DNA of 32,265 bases, from positions 1-32,265 of the forward strand of contig CALUMM010000026.1 in assembly GCA_944321755.1 (NCBI GenBank), given 5' to 3'. Of this stretch, positions 19,204 to 32,265 are shown piece after piece. How positions within the stretch are numbered: the stretch's first letter is position 1; each line of letters begins with the position of its first letter. A program made the position numbers and the translations under genes. The notes under the pieces were generated by a model, which saw nothing but the letters and a program-made list of their open reading frames with translations, was not told the DNA's origin and searched no databases. The stretch comes from an uncultured Alistipes sp. (GTDB taxonomy: Bacteria; Bacteroidota; Bacteroidia; Bacteroidales; Rikenellaceae).

Positions 19204-21021
19204 ATGGAATCCCTCAAACGCTGGTGCTATCGGCCCGGAGCGGCCGGTAGCACTTTTTCTCGACTGCTGAAACCAATCGGTGATCATCCCGGATTCTTCC
19301 TCTTCGCCGCGATCGTCCCCACCTTCCCCGACATCCTCTATGCCGTCAGCCGCGAAATGACCTTCTTCGTCTGGAGAAACCTCATCCTCGCACTGCTCCT
19401 CTCCCTCTTCCGCGCCTATCTCCTTACCCTCCCGCTCTGCCTGCACCGGCGCCGCCATACAAACGGGGGGGGGTCCACGGCATGGCAAATCGTCCGGACC
19501 GGATACATCTCCGCCGTCCTGCTGATTCTCGGCGTGGCATCCTATGCCGAAAGTTTCCTCCAGATACACTTCGGAACACTCTGCTCCGCATCGGTCCTGC
19601 AGGTCCTCTGGGAAACCAACGCGCAGGAGAGCTCCGAATTCCTCAAAACATACTGCGCATCCACCTCCTTCATCCTGCTGACCATCTTCTTCGCGCTGAT
19701 CGTCGCCGGATATGTCGTGCTGCGAAAACATGCCCCGAAATTCAGATTCCGGAACCGCGCAGTACGCACCACGCTGGCCATCCTCCTCCTTATCGGACTC
19801 GGAATCTCCATCAGCCGAATCCAGATCTTCTGCAAACTCCTCCTCGCCGAGCACGATACCCCGGCCATCGAGGCCCCGAGCACCCCAATCTCGACCTTCG
19901 AACGAATCCATACCGCCCTCGCCGCGAACAACTTCTCGCCCGAACGCGCCGAACGGCTCCTGCAGATCCTCGATTCGGCCCGCGTGGAGGGATGTTCGTT
20001 CCGGTCGCCCTGTATCGTCGTGATCATCGGAGAGTCGTTCAACAAACACCATTCGAGCCTCTACGGATACCCGCTGGAGACCAATCCCCGCATGGAGGAG
20101 CGCCGCAAACGGGGCGAACTGTTCGTCTTCAACGATGTCGTATCCCCCGCAAACCTCACCACCTCGGTGCTGAACCAGATCTTCTCCCCCGCCAGCCTCG
20201 ATGCCGGAGAACACTGGGACGAGGAACCCCTCTTCCCGGCCCTGTTCCGAAAGGCCGGATACGCCACCTACCACATGGACAACCAGGCCGCAGGTACGGT
20301 GACCAATTTCCACGACCTCGGCTTGAAGAACCTCTTCAATTCCCGAAGCAACGCCCTGCTCTTCACGGCCGTCAACTCCCGACGCCACTTCTCGGACCTC
20401 GCCCTCATCGACGACTACGACCGAATCGTCCCGAAAACCGATTCCGCCGAGCTGACGATCTTCCACCTCATCGGGCAGCACCTCCACTACCGGGACCGGT
20501 TCCCTGCCGACGAGGCGCACTTCTCGCCCGACGATTACGACCGCCCCGACCTGAATGCCCGCCAAAAACAGATCCTGGCCGACTACGACAACGCAACCCG
20601 TTACAACGACCGCGTCGTGGATGCCATCCTGGAGCACTTCGCCCGGCGGGACGCCATCGTCATCTACCTCCCGGACCACGGCGAGGAGATGTTCGACTAC
20701 CGCGTCCATTTCGGCCGCACCTACACCCCGCTCACGGCCGGGATCTGCAAATACCAGTTCGAGATCCCCTTCCTGATCTGGATGTCAGACTCCTACCGCA
20801 GCAACCATCCCGAAGTCGTGGAACAGGTAGCCCGGGCCCTCGACCGCCGCTTCTCCTCGGATGACCTGCCCCATCTGCTGATGGATCTGGCCGGAATCCG
20901 ATGCCCGTGGTACGACCCCACGCGCAGCCTCGTCAACGACCGATTCGACAATGCCCGACCCAGACCCCTGCTGCTCGGATACGAACCCGCCGGAGACTAC
21001 GACGTGCTGATCCGGGAGTAG
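19204..21021 (+). CDS. Phosphoethanolamine transferase (EptA/MCR-like, sulfatase fold)
   Basis: This 605-residue inner-membrane enzyme has five predicted membrane helices (about residues 28-48, 52-76, 98-118, 148-170 and 185-203) and a periplasmic alkaline-phosphatase-fold domain (about 260-590). Catalytic motifs are IIGESFNKHHSSLYGY (Glu277, metal ligand), SPANLTTSVLNQIFS (Thr319 in the place of the nucleophilic Thr) and LPDHGEE (Asp/His ligands). Relatives transfer phosphoethanolamine from phosphatidylethanolamine to lipid A or other glycans; the acceptor here is unknown. The two Cys that flank the Thr in MCR/EptA enzymes are replaced (Pro, Gln), so that disulfide is absent. Codons 88-90 form a run of nine G between helices 2 and 3, a possible slippage site. 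It is co-transcribed with the coiled-coil gene upstream. Confidence 0.88.
   Translation: MESLKRWCYRPGAAGSTFSRLLKPIGDHPGFFLFAAIVPTFPDILYAVSREMTFFVWRNLILALLLSLFRAYLLTLPLCLHRRRHTNGGGSTAWQIVRTGYISAVLLILGVASYAESFLQIHFGTLCSASVLQVLWETNAQESSEFLKTYCASTSFILLTIFFALIVAGYVVLRKHAPKFRFRNRAVRTTLAILLLIGLGISISRIQIFCKLLLAEHDTPAIEAPSTPISTFERIHTALAANNFSPERAERLLQILDSARVEGCSFRSPCIVVIIGESFNKHHSSLYGYPLETNPRMEERRKRGELFVFNDVVSPANLTTSVLNQIFSPASLDAGEHWDEEPLFPALFRKAGYATYHMDNQAAGTVTNFHDLGLKNLFNSRSNALLFTAVNSRRHFSDLALIDDYDRIVPKTDSAELTIFHLIGQHLHYRDRFPADEAHFSPDDYDRPDLNARQKQILADYDNATRYNDRVVDAILEHFARRDAIVIYLPDHGEEMFDYRVHFGRTYTPLTAGICKYQFEIPFLIWMSDSYRSNHPEVVEQVARALDRRFSSDDLPHLLMDLAGIRCPWYDPTRSLVNDRFDNARPRPLLLGYEPAGDYDVLIRE
19465..19473 (+). 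repeat. Run of nine G inside the EptA-like gene
   Basis: Nine consecutive G encode Gly88-Gly90 in the loop between predicted membrane helices 2 and 3. Gain or loss of one G would shift the frame before the catalytic domain. Confidence 0.95.
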
Positions 21022-25640: not shown

Positions 25641-27056
25641 ATGTATGCCACACCCCACATAGCAGGTCCCACGGACGGAATCCCGATGCCCCGACGGCTG
25701 GGAGCCATCCTCGCCGTCGCTTTCGGCGTATCCCTCTCGGTCATCGACGGATCCATCGCAAACGTCGCACTCCCCACCATCGGAGCTCAACTCGGCATCT
25801 CTGCCGCAGACTCCATCTGGGTCGTCAACGCATATCAGCTGGCCATTATGGTCTCCCTGCTCTCCTTTTCGGCCCTCGGAGACGTGATCGGATACCGAAA
25901 AGTCTATATCGGGGGATTGATGCTCTTCACCGTGGCTTCCGTCGGGTGCTCGCTCGCCGGATCCTTCCAGTCCCTCGTCCTCGCCCGCGTCTTGCAAGGG
26001 TTCGGCGCCGCGGCCATCACCTCCGTCAACACCACGCTCATCCGCTTCATCTACCCAAAGGCCCAACTCGGACGCGGCATGGGAATCAATGCCACGGTCG
26101 TCGCCGTCTCGGCTGTCGCAGGACCCACCATCGCCGCCGGAATCCTCGCCATCGCCGAATGGCCCTGGCTCTTCGCCGTAAACATCCCCATCGGACTGGC
26201 GGCCCTCAGCCTCAGCCACCGGTTCCTCCCACAGAACCCCGTCCGGGATGCCGCTCACCGGTTCAGCTGGCGCGATGCCGTAATGAACGCACTCACCTTC
26301 GGACTCCTCATGGCTTCGGTCGAGGGTTTCTCCCACGGAATAAACCCGACGCTCCTCTCCTTCGGCATCGCGGCCCTGCTCGTCATCGGATTCTTCTTCA
26401 TCCGCTCCCAACTCCGCGAAACATACCCCATTCTGCCATTCGACCTGCTCCGAATCCCGATCTTCTCGGTCTCGATGCTCACCTCCATCTGCTCGTTCGT
26501 CGCCCAGATGCTCGCACTGGTCGCCCTGCCATTCTACCTGCAGCACGCCTGCGGATACAGCGACGTGCAGACCGGACTCATCCTTACGGCCTGGCCTGCC
26601 GTCATCATCGTCGTGGCCCCCGTGGCCGGAATGCTCGTCGAACGCATCCATGCTGGACTGCTCGGTGGAATCGGCCTTACGACCATGGCTACCGGGCTCT
26701 TCCTCCTGGCCTGGATCCCCGAAAATCCCTCCGCCTTCGGGCTCATCTGGAGACTGGTTCTCTGCGGAGCCGGATTCGGGCTCTTCCAGTCCCCGAACAA
26801 CAGCATCCTGATCGCTTCCGCTCCGCCCTCCCGAAGCGGCTCCGCAAGCGGAATGCTCGCCACGGCCCGGCTCGTCGGACAAACAACCGGAGCCGCGCTG
26901 ATGGCCATGCTCTTCCATTTCGTCCCCCGGAACAGCACCCATACCGCCCTGATGATCGCCGGAGGATGCGCCGTAACGGCCGCCATCATCAGCTTCGCAC
27001 GCATTTCACTTCCCCTGCCCGAAGGACTCGAACGCAAACGAAAACAAAAAGCATGA
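25641..27056 (+). CDS. MFS transporter, DHA2 (EmrB/QacA-like) family
   Basis: This 471-residue inner-membrane protein has about 14 predicted helices, the number typical of the DHA2 drug:H+ antiporter group. Motifs are SVIDGSIANVALPTIG in the first helix, GDVIGYRKVYIGG (motif A) near residue 80, LARVLQGFGAAA (motif B) near 117, and AGPTIAAGILA (motif C) near 155, which marks antiporters. Possible exports include drugs, bile acids or metabolites; the substrate is unknown. The C-terminus is short and basic (ERKRKQKA). It overlaps the S66 peptidase gene by four bases (ATGA), so the two are coupled. No regulator is adjacent. Confidence 0.92.
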   Translation: MYATPHIAGPTDGIPMPRRLGAILAVAFGVSLSVIDGSIANVALPTIGAQLGISAADSIWVVNAYQLAIMVSLLSFSALGDVIGYRKVYIGGLMLFTVASVGCSLAGSFQSLVLARVLQGFGAAAITSVNTTLIRFIYPKAQLGRGMGINATVVAVSAVAGPTIAAGILAIAEWPWLFAVNIPIGLAALSLSHRFLPQNPVRDAAHRFSWRDAVMNALTFGLLMASVEGFSHGINPTLLSFGIAALLVIGFFFIRSQLRETYPILPFDLLRIPIFSVSMLTSICSFVAQMLALVALPFYLQHACGYSDVQTGLILTAWPAVIIVVAPVAGMLVERIHAGLLGGIGLTTMATGLFLLAWIPENPSAFGLIWRLVLCGAGFGLFQSPNNSILIASAPPSRSGSASGMLATARLVGQTTGAALMAMLFHFVPRNSTHTALMIAGGCAVTAAIISFARISLPLPEGLERKRKQKA

Positions 27057-28051
27057 AACGCCTGATTCCGTTGCTGCTGTGCCTCCTTCCCCTCGGCACC
27101 GCAGCCCAGGACCCCGACTCCGGCCGATTCATCCGACCGCCCTATCTCCACCGCGGAGACACCATAGGAATCGTATCCCCCGCCGGGAAACTCCCCAAAA
27201 AGATCGATACGGCCAGGATCCGCGAACGCTTCGAAGCCTGGGGCCTGCATCCGAAATTCGGAAGGTTCTGGAGCTGCCGCGAACACCCCTACTTCGCCGC
27301 CACGGACCAACAGCGCGCCGAAGACCTCCAGCGCATGATCGACGACCCTTCGGTCAAGGCGATTCTGGCCGGACGCGGCGGATACGGATCGGTGAGGCTG
27401 CTCCCCCTCGTGGACTTCTCGCCCCTGCGCGAAAACCCGAAATGGATCGCCGGATTCAGTGACGTCACAACCCTGCACCTCGTCCTGCGGCGGCTCGGCA
27501 TCGAATCCATTCACGGACCGATGCCCTCCGGATTCCGGTTCGACGACGACGGGGAGGACGACTCCGCCGAATCGCTCCGCAAGGCCCTCTTCGGCGAAAC
27601 ACTCCGCATCGAGATCGACCCCCACCCGCTGAACCGAACCGGAACGGCCCGCGGACGCCTGGCCGGCGGAAACCTCACGGTCCTCTGCGCCGCAAACGGA
27701 ACCCCCGAAGCCCTCGAAACCGAAACGCCGACCGTCCTGCTCATCGAGGAGATCGGCGAATTCGCCTACCGCATCGACCGCATGATGCAGAGCCTCGAAC
27801 GCTGCGGCGTGCTGCGAAACGTCCGGGCCGTCCTCGTGGGGCATTTCTCGAAGACGATCGGATGCGACAAGTTCGGGGTCCCCGATGCCGAAACCATCAT
27901 TGCACGGTATCTCCGGGATCTGAAGATTCCCGTCGTATTCGGATTCCCCGCCGGGCACGAAGAACCCAACCTCGCCCTCTACATGGGCCGCGAAGTATCC
28001 GTCCGGGTCGACAAAACAGGCGCCTCGATCGATTTCCATACCGCAGAGTAA
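27053..28051 (+). CDS. Exported S66 family LD-carboxypeptidase
   Basis: This 332-residue serine peptidase resembles LD-carboxypeptidase A, which trims the terminal D-Ala from murein tetrapeptides during peptidoglycan recycling. Visible motifs are GDTIGIVSPAG, ILAGRGGYGSVRLL, GFSDVTTLHL with Ser136 as nucleophile, LIEEIGEFAYRIDRM (Glu232) and FPAGHEEPNLAL (His302), giving the Ser-Glu-His triad. Unlike the cytoplasmic E. coli enzyme it begins with a signal peptide (about 1-18, ending TAAQ), so it should act in the periplasm. The ATG at 27053 overlaps the exporter stop by four bases. Its own stop codon forms part of the following terminator stem. Confidence 0.92.
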   Translation: MKRLIPLLLCLLPLGTAAQDPDSGRFIRPPYLHRGDTIGIVSPAGKLPKKIDTARIRERFEAWGLHPKFGRFWSCREHPYFAATDQQRAEDLQRMIDDPSVKAILAGRGGYGSVRLLPLVDFSPLRENPKWIAGFSDVTTLHLVLRRLGIESIHGPMPSGFRFDDDGEDDSAESLRKALFGETLRIEIDPHPLNRTGTARGRLAGGNLTVLCAANGTPEALETETPTVLLIEEIGEFAYRIDRMMQSLERCGVLRNVRAVLVGHFSKTIGCDKFGVPDAETIIARYLRDLKIPVVFGFPAGHEEPNLALYMGREVSVRVDKTGASIDFHTAE

Positions 28052-30273: not shown

Positions 30274-30301
30274 AAAATCGCCCCGCAAGGGCGATTTTTT
30301 T
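30274..30301 (+). terminator. Rho-independent terminator after the SGNH esterase gene
   Basis: Ten-base perfect arms (30274-30283 and 30289-30298) flank a 5-base loop, with the T tract running on to 30301. Confidence 0.92.
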
Positions 30302-30333
30302 CTCCCCGAAAGTTGTTTTTCCCGATTATTTCG

Positions 30334-30341
30334 TATATTTA
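30334..30341 (+). promoter_or_regulatory. Weak candidate -7 box for the EF-G-like gene
   Basis: TATATTTA matches the -7 consensus at all fixed positions but the final G. It lies about 85 bases before the start codon. The -33 region has only a partial match (GTTG), so activator dependence is possible. Confidence 0.35.
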
Positions 30342-30424: not shown

Positions 30425-32265
30425 ATGAAAAACTATTCAGCCAAAGAGATCAAGAACATCGTCCTCATCGGTGCCCCCGGCACGGGTAAAACTACCCTTG
30501 CCGAAGCGATGGCCTACGAGGGGAAAGTCATCGACCGCAGGGGTAGTATCGAGAACAACAACACGCTCTCGGACAATACGGATATCGAGCACGAATACAA
30601 ACGCTCGATCTATTCCACGATCCTCTTCACCGAATTCATGGACCGAAAACTCAATATCATCGACTGCCCCGGATCCGACGACTTCTGCGGAAGCCTCTTC
30701 TCGGCGTTCAAGGTCGGTGACGTCGGCGTATTCCTCTTCAATGCCCAGAACGGATGGGAGGTCGGAAGCGAGATTCAGGCCCGTTACGCCCGCCTGCTCC
30801 AGAAACCCGTCATCGGTGTCATCAACCAGCTCGACGCCGACAAGGCCAGCTTCGAAGCCACGTTCGACTCCATCAAGGCCGCCTCGCGCGTGAAACCCGT
30901 CATCGTGCAGTATCCCGTCAACCAGGGCCCCGAATTCAACGCCTTCATCGACGTCCTGCTCATGAAGATGTACCGCTTCAAGGATAACGACGGCCACCGC
31001 GAAGAGCTCGAAATCCCCGCCGAGGAGATGGAGCGCGCCACGGAACTCAACAAGGAGCTCGTCGAAATGGCCGCCGAACACGACGAAGCCCTCATGGAGC
31101 TCTACTTCGACAAGGGAACGCTGACCCAGGACGACATCCGCGCCGGACTCAAGATCGGGCTCTCGAAGCGTGAGGTGATGCCCATCTTCTGCACCAGCGG
31201 AAAGCGCGACATCGGAACCAAGCGCCTCATGGAGTTCATTATCAACGTCGCGCCCGGTCCGCTGAAGGCCCCCGCATTCCTCTCCACCGAGGGCGAGGAG
31301 ATCACCGCCGACGAAGCGGCTCCCGCCGTGGCCTTCGTATTCAAGAGCCAGGTCGAGCAGCACATCGGTGAAATCTCCTACTTCCGCGTCATCCGCGGCA
31401 AGATCGCCGAAGGCACCGAGCTCGTCAACACCCGCACCGGAAACAAGGAAAAACTCTCGCAGCTCTTCGCCGTCGCCGGAAAGAACCGCATCAAGGTCAC
31501 CGAACTCTCCGCCGGCGACATCGGCTGCACCGTCAAACTCAAGGGCACCCGCACGAACGACACCCTCTCGGCTGCCGCCGCGCCCGTGACGATCGAACCC
31601 ATCGTCTTCCCCGAGCCCCGCTACCGCGCCGCCGTCAAGTGCAAGGAGCAGAGCGATGAGGAGAAGCTCGGCAAGCTGCTCAACGATGCCAAGTTCGAAG
31701 ACCCGACGATTCTGGTCGAATACTCCAAGGAGCTGAAGCAGACCATCATCCAGGGACAGGGCGAACACCACCTGAACATCCTGCGGAACCGTATTCTCGC
31801 AGAAAACAAACTCGCCTACGAGTACATCGCCCCGAAGATCCCTTACCGCGAAACCATCACCAAGGTCGCACAGGCCGACTACCGCCACAAGAAGCAGTCG
31901 GGAGGCGCAGGGCAGTTCGGTGAGGTTCACATGATCATCGAACCCTACTACGAGGGAATTCCCGAACCGAAGAACTACAAGGTCCCCGGAAAGGGAGACA
32001 TGGTCGTCAACGTCAAGACCAAGGAGGAGTACGACCTCGCATGGGGCGGAAAACTCCAGTTCTACTCGGCCATCGTCGGCGGCGCCATCGACGCACGCTT
32101 CATGCCCGCCATCCTCAAGGGTATCATGGAGAAGATGGACGAGGGACCGCTCACCGGTTCCTACGCCCGCGACATTCGCGTCATCATCTACGACGGCAAG
32201 ATGCACCCCGTGGATTCGAACGAAATCTCCTTCAAACTCGCCGCCCGGAACGCCTTCAAGGAGGC
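30425..32265 (+). CDS. Elongation factor G paralogue (EF-G2-like), partial at the right edge
   Basis: The first 613 codons are visible. EF-G domains are recognisable in order: a G-domain (1 to about 260), a beta-barrel domain II (about 295-385, AFVFKSQVEQHIGEISYFRVIRG), domain III with IIQGQGEHHLNIL, and domain IV with QSGGAGQFGEVHMII and GGAIDARFMPAILKG. The P-loop is GAPGTGKTT (16-24). Other G motifs deviate strongly. Switch I reads KRSIYS where RGIT is expected (Tyr63 at the Thr). G3 reads DCPGSDDF, with Ser84 at the catalytic His. G4 reads NQLD (134-137), with Gln at the Lys. It is therefore unlikely to hydrolyse GTP normally. From established knowledge, Bacteroides carries an EF-G paralogue that supports translation without GTP hydrolysis, and this is the best match. 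Confidence 0.92.
   Translation, partial: MKNYSAKEIKNIVLIGAPGTGKTTLAEAMAYEGKVIDRRGSIENNNTLSDNTDIEHEYKRSIYSTILFTEFMDRKLNIIDCPGSDDFCGSLFSAFKVGDVGVFLFNAQNGWEVGSEIQARYARLLQKPVIGVINQLDADKASFEATFDSIKAASRVKPVIVQYPVNQGPEFNAFIDVLLMKMYRFKDNDGHREELEIPAEEMERATELNKELVEMAAEHDEALMELYFDKGTLTQDDIRAGLKIGLSKREVMPIFCTSGKRDIGTKRLMEFIINVAPGPLKAPAFLSTEGEEITADEAAPAVAFVFKSQVEQHIGEISYFRVIRGKIAEGTELVNTRTGNKEKLSQLFAVAGKNRIKVTELSAGDIGCTVKLKGTRTNDTLSAAAAPVTIEPIVFPEPRYRAAVKCKEQSDEEKLGKLLNDAKFEDPTILVEYSKELKQTIIQGQGEHHLNILRNRILAENKLAYEYIAPKIPYRETITKVAQADYRHKKQSGGAGQFGEVHMIIEPYYEGIPEPKNYKVPGKGDMVVNVKTKEEYDLAWGGKLQFYSAIVGGAIDARFMPAILKGIMEKMDEGPLTGSYARDIRVIIYDGKMHPVDSNEISFKLAARNAFKE

Follow-up and report, generated by a model that had tools for sequence, protein, structure and literature searches.

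The gene fusA2, located at the very end of the window (the whole stretch of 32,265 nucleotides analyzed in this work; fusA2 at 30425..32265, + strand), codes for EF-G2; the protein belongs to the Bacteroidota branch of the EFG II subfamily and is likely the orthologue of B. thetaiotaomicron BT2167. We consider it probable that this protein is an EF-G2 of the B. thetaiotaomicron type, which would bind nucleotide through its P-loop and carry out translocation with slow or no GTP hydrolysis, beside the canonical EF-G. The orthology, the residues occupying the GTPase motifs, the purifying selection, the co-occurrence with fusA in relatives and a conserved promoter-like site are directly supported by the data reported here; nucleotide binding, a translocase activity without hydrolysis and the conditional use of EF-G2 in Alistipes are what we infer.

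The MAG, in which the window is contig C26, consists of 168 contigs and 2.88 Mb and is 86.95% complete. The ATG at position 30425 opens a frame that runs stop-free to the window end (613 amino acids, codons to 32263), and this part of the protein, corresponding to residues 1-613 of 718, exceeds the Pfam cut-offs for the GTP_EFTU G domain, EF-G domain II, domain III and most of domain IV. The MAG has a further contig, C68, that starts with exactly the last 77 nucleotides of the window and continues with the remainder of fusA2, the joined protein being 718 amino acids long. Since C68 overlaps the window end and completes the frame, the gene looks intact but cut by the assembly; the exact 77-nt overlap resembles an assembler k-mer join. 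Contig breaks in this MAG affect three translation loci, namely fusA2, the region before fusA and a lepA-like gene (C154/C146). The idea that fusA2 might be a pseudogene or a decaying duplicate was ruled out by the dN/dS values, which range from 0.050 to 0.094 in all seven fusA2 pairs tested and indicate purifying selection. An AlphaFold2 model of EF-G2, built from 25 close sequences, had a mean pLDDT of 58.5 and a pTM of 0.48, a quality too poor for use.

The assignment to EF-G2 is strongly supported by the family model, the tree and the identity of three residues, and a named NCBI family model already covers the protein, just as its Bacteroides member has already been described. Indeed, the model NF058620 (elongation factor G2, EFG2_Bacteroid; cut-off 1000) gives 1023.9 bits for the 613-residue part and 1222 for the joined protein, whereas the canonical EF-G model TIGR00484 gives 373.6 and 490.8, respectively, both below its cut-off of 659.4. 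The best PDB match by sequence (phmmer) is 7uvp_A/8dmf, with 709 bits over residues 1-613 vs. 329 for Thermus EF-G; judging from its sequence, we take 7uvp to be B. thetaiotaomicron BT2167. The 92 rows of a quick maximum-likelihood tree comprised the window's protein, 7uvp, ten of the 30 family loci, five of the 80 close named ones, the 69 phylum loci in full and six of the 20 canonical sequences. This tree, with SH-aLRT as its sole support measure, no bootstrap and one long row (L213) placed uncertainly, revealed a clade with 100% SH-aLRT that comprises 19 rows, namely the window, 7uvp, two same-order genomes and members of the window's family, with canonical fusA falling outside. The window's protein shares 54-56% identity with the two same-order proteins clustering with 7uvp, and 31-33% with 20 canonical fusA products of the same family. 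Among the best 80 of 292 confirmed loci, the nearest records are titled Alistipes, Rikenellaceae or Bacteroidales, with a top identity of 98%, which is why we assign the window's family to Rikenellaceae. Our literature search, which covered few subscription papers, found no paper on EF-G2/fusA2 in Alistipes; Han 2023 may treat its distribution.

The GTPase motifs were compared by aligning the protein with Thermus EF-G and the 20 canonical fusA products of the same family (all the positions given below are on the + strand). The G1/P-loop (G16-APGTGK-T23, 30470..30493) is intact, with Lys22 and Thr23 retained, as the first-pass annotation had reported. It had also described the loss of the catalytic His and of the NKxD Lys, and both losses are borne out: the canonical DTPGH is replaced by DCPGS in the G3 motif (residues 80-84, 30662..30676), with Ser84 in the place of the His, and the canonical NKMD (NKxD) by NQLD in the G4 motif (residues 134-137, 30824..30835), where Gln135 takes the place of the Lys and the Asn and Asp are retained. 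The canonical RGITI is altered as well, but here the earlier reading was off by two positions: Tyr63 (30611..30613), which had been taken for the missing switch I Thr, aligns with Thermus Thr66, and it is Ser61 (30605..30607) that corresponds to the Mg-binding Thr of RGITI (Thermus Thr64). In Margus 2011 (PMC3150367), xxxSx is cited as the EFG II state of the G2 motif, and the Thr/Ser function is argued to be maintained. Since the EFG II consensus has Ser here, with a function that might thus be preserved, we count switch I as a conservative change, in which Ser61 may still bind Mg. Hence, of the three degraded motifs originally proposed, those at the His84 and Lys135 sites stand and the one in switch I does not. 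The protein 7uvp carries the same Ser/Ser/Gln at positions 61/84/135 and has a similar domain IV extension; together with full-length homology, the family model and the tree, this strongly supports the likeness to Bacteroides EF-G2 that had been suspected at first.

Several traits are shared with EFG II, whose type is Thermus EF-G-2 (PDB 1WDT): a Ser in the G2 motif, no catalytic His and, in the P-loop region, Gly16 and Leu25 instead of the Ala and Thr of the canonical set. The window's protein differs from this subfamily in the G4 motif, NKxD being cited as conserved in EFG II by Margus 2011 (PMC3150367), and from Thermus EF-G-2 in the residue that follows DxPG, which is Ser rather than Tyr (DAPGY). 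With canonical EF-G (EFG I, fusA) it shares the domain order and many residues of domains III and IV. In the G domain, the window retains 48 of 139 canonical-invariant columns; the corresponding figures are 20/41 for domain II, 24/42 for domain III and 23/35 for domain IV (12 of 35 being altered in the last). These counts should be used as a guide only, because the invariant set, derived from 20 relatives plus Thermus, is narrow. In domain IV, the loop Q491-SGGAGQF-G499 (31895..31921) is close to the canonical QTGGRGQYG, and H594-PVDS (32204..32218) retains the His of the canonical YDGSYHEVDS. The same domain carries an extension relative to canonical EF-G (31955-32044, codons 511-540) which, among the ten rows printed, is longest in the window and in the Bacteroides-type rows.

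These contacts bear on the possibility that the main role of the protein is not elongation but ribosome recycling, protection or a hibernation/stress binding, comparable with the Borrelia EF-G paralogue that acts in recycling only. EFG paralogues with split roles are cited for other organisms (PMC3150367), and 7uvp, the phmmer match, bears in the PDB the name of a ribosome protection protein; nevertheless, we regard such a role as very improbable, given that the loop QSGGAGQFG and H594 are retained, that B. thetaiotaomicron EF-G2 is cited as an alternative translation elongation factor (PMC10294740) and that the scores speak against protection. Tet ribosome protection proteins are EF-G-like and share the PDB name of 7uvp, but the window's protein reaches 149.5 bits with the Tet model vs. 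a cut-off of 775, and it can be ruled out that it belongs to this group; the first 612 residues of 7uvp likewise fail the Tet model (211.4 vs. 775) and pass the EF-G2 one with 1174.7 bits. As a separate observation, 7uvp_A/8dmf is listed as Tetracycline resistance protein TetQ despite its EF-G2 sequence; this label is probably an inherited database name and may mislead the annotation of resistance.

The residues at the catalytic positions were then compared in 179 EF-G2 loci, that is 80 close named loci, 30 loci of the same family (the best-scoring ones, not a random draw) and 69 loci of the phylum, these last taken from 108 EF-G2 matches other than the window's own, with the other 39 standing outside the motif count; 187 of the 296 phylum genomes had no EF-G2 match at E 1e-200. 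From Alistipes to the wider phylum, the catalytic His at position 84 was found in none of the 179 loci. All the 80 close named loci harbor S61/Y63/S84/Q135, and two of them depart from the others in the P-loop, one having an altered Lys and Thr and the other lacking that stretch. In the 30 family loci, S61 is constant, position 84 is occupied by Ser in 29 cases and by Ala in one, and position 135 by Gln in 28, His in one and Lys in one. The variability is much wider among the 69 phylum loci, which at residue 84 have Tyr (39), Thr (11), Leu (8), Phe (6), Ser (2), Ala (2) or Pro (1), and at residue 135 Lys (32), Gln (23), His (13) or Ala (1), so that the Lys is absent from 37 of 69. On the quick tree (86 EF-G2 rows), at least 12 changes are needed at residue 84 and at least six between Lys and non-Lys at residue 135. 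The two single family members with Lys or His at 135 (L041 and L023) hint that this residue changes easily. In one phylum genome with a very long branch (L213), TKVA replaces NKxD, with both the Asn and the Asp lost, and it is possible that guanine specificity may have been lost as well.

The absence of the His from all the loci has to be read with some caution. Thermus EF-G-2, which has Tyr in that place, is cited as hydrolyzing GTP and as active in poly(Phe) synthesis (PMC3150367); hence the loss of the His alone does not prove the loss of GTPase activity. It marks the wider subfamily, as sampled, rather than inactivity as such, and it is the combination of Ser84 and Gln135 that would make inactivity likelier. 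The same precedent supports the view that the window's protein is an EFG II translocase still hydrolyzing GTP slowly on the ribosome, by means of another residue or a different arrangement of water, and the preservation of the P-loop Lys (177 of 179 loci), Asp80 (179 of 179) and Asp137 (178 of 179) would fit it too. We consider this view unlikely, though not negligible, because at residue 84 the window's protein has a small polar Ser instead of Tyr and because the NKxD Lys is gone too, exactly as in 7uvp. Moreover, the title of Han 2023 reportedly describes a Bacteroides EF-G paralogue without GTPase activity.

A GTP-binding translocase that hydrolyzes GTP poorly or not at all is thus the best reading of the window's protein, since it has the same three residues and the same architecture as 7uvp. 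According to this model, the intact P-loop would allow a guanine nucleotide to be bound, and the near-canonical contacts of domains III and IV would allow the protein to enter the ribosomal A site and to promote the translocation of tRNA and mRNA; with Ser for the catalytic His and Gln for the NKxD Lys, hydrolysis would probably be very slow or absent, and EF-G2 would be used beside canonical EF-G, most likely under a shortage of GTP or carbon. The loss of GTPase activity in Alistipes EF-G2 appears likely on the basis of these residues, and the orthology makes it plausible that the protein translocates without normal GTP hydrolysis. This is in agreement with the GTP-independent translation that B. 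thetaiotaomicron EF-G2 is cited as making possible (PMC10294740), and with the citation of Han 2023 for an EF-G paralogue whose translocation activity does not require GTP hydrolysis (PMC12775393). M. smegmatis EF-G2 is cited as devoid of ribosome-dependent GTPase (PMC3150367), and EFGII as able to replace EF-G, with a much slower translocation (PMC4342817).

We can also speculate, more tentatively and with less than even confidence, that hydrolysis-independent translocation is an old, phylum-wide second elongation system rather than a speciality of Bacteroides, with a graded series running from Tyr/Lys to Ser/Gln members, in which the former might perhaps still hydrolyze GTP like Thermus EF-G-2 and the latter might only bind it. 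It is cited as still debated at which steps translocation depends on GTP hydrolysis (PMC12775393). EF-G2 has largely kept its ribosome-contacting domains, has lost its catalytic residues and is under purifying selection in Alistipes, and the drift of the catalytic position across the phylum offers a set of natural variants with which the need for hydrolysis can be tested.

The absence of any other EF-G gene from the genome had been named at first as an observation that would speak against the proposed interpretation. Formally this is the case, as no canonical EF-G passing the search was found in this MAG, but its absence is most likely due to an assembly gap: the fusA region of a relative matches contig C128 (5450 bases) over the first 610 bases of the query, up to the very end of the contig, whereas fusA starts at about base 885 of the query, and the last complete gene on C128 is, by eye, rpsL. 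Since the match stops at the contig end before fusA is reached, the gene appears to be missing by assembly. Matches on C146, C154 and C65 were examined as further EF-G genes and rejected, their translations reading by eye as the two halves of lepA (C146 and C154) and as tuf (C65). Canonical fusA is present in all the 17 other genomes of the same genus sampled, in 86 of the 101 genomes of the family (a set that contains the window's own; E 1e-150 or better), and in 55 of the 57 with a completeness of 90% or more and a contamination not above 5%. EF-G2 exceeds the NF058620 cut-off in 92 of the 101, the nine misses being all less than 90% complete, and hence in every sampled genome of the family that is at least 90% complete; according to both lists, the two genes occur together in 81 of the 101 genomes. 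If EF-G2 had replaced fusA and were the only EF-G of this organism, this would account for the failure to find the canonical gene in the MAG; in the light of the truncated match on C128 and of the 17 congeners out of 17 that carry fusA, we judge it extremely improbable.

The region upstream of fusA2 contains an inverted repeat followed by a T-run, terminator-like by eye, between the upstream gene and fusA2 (30274..30302), and a promoter-like site made up of TTG, 18 nt and TATATTTA (30313-30341, + strand). The Bacteroides promoter consensus is TAnnTTTG, and the site of the window resembles the Bacteroides promoter form. In 78 upstream regions (the window plus 77 close loci), a TTG-18-TATATTTA-like pattern is present in 74, vs. 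a mean of 1.84 and a maximum of 7 in 50 Markov-resampled sets. The promoter had been described as looking weak, which is not supported: the pattern is conserved, and nothing in the sequence marks weakness.

Regarding regulation, in B. thetaiotaomicron the regulator BT4338/Cur is cited as binding a 22-bp site upstream of fusA2, whose mRNA increases 238-fold on carbon limitation (PMC6989115). This operator was not recognizable in the 400 nt upstream of the window's gene, where the best match was 12/22 (p 0.26; 7/14 in another scan), in a test that is weak, the positive controls (two same-order regions clustering with 7uvp) reaching 16/22, with p of 0.015 and 0.025, at a nearly equal distance from the start. 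It was not found at p ≤ 0.01 in any of the upstream regions of the 77 close relatives, two of which had 15/22 (p 0.015), and a Cur-like site at p 0.01 occurred in one of 28 family loci (L026) and in one of 64 phylum loci; the scans leave aside three of the 80 close and two of the 30 family loci, with less than 200 nt upstream, and three of the 67 phylum loci that remain once the two same-order ones are set apart. Because the controls are weak and a few relatives score similarly, the result is to be read as the lack of a recognizable site, not as proof of a different regulation, and a diverged site is possible. Thus, the suggestion that this biology extends outside Bacteroides holds for the gene itself, whose distribution in the family is described above, but finds no support in the upstream sequence as regards its regulation, and, since the Cur operator is not recognizable in Alistipes, the starvation biology of Bacteroides should not be assumed there.

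A conserved neighborhood of fusA2 was not found in the loci compared (80 close named, 30 of other family genomes and two of the same order, the flanks of the named loci being no longer than 2500 bases). The gene upstream of fusA2, GDSL-type by eye and with no NCBIfam match, is present in ten of the 80 close named loci, and the one that follows fusA2 on C68 (a phosphate transporter by eye) in 22 of them; both are missing from all the 30 family loci and from the two same-order ones.

Two other genes of the window deserve a brief mention. The one at 19204-21021 (+) codes for a phosphoethanolamine-transferase-like protein that falls below the cut-off of all the 16 models listed, including the MCR models. 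The open reading frame at 25946-28051 (+) is 701 amino acids long, but only its residues 406-696 match a muramoyltetrapeptide carboxypeptidase model, below the cut-off, and its front part overlaps, in another frame, an MFS-transporter-like gene (25641-27056); for these two reasons the true gene is probably shorter.
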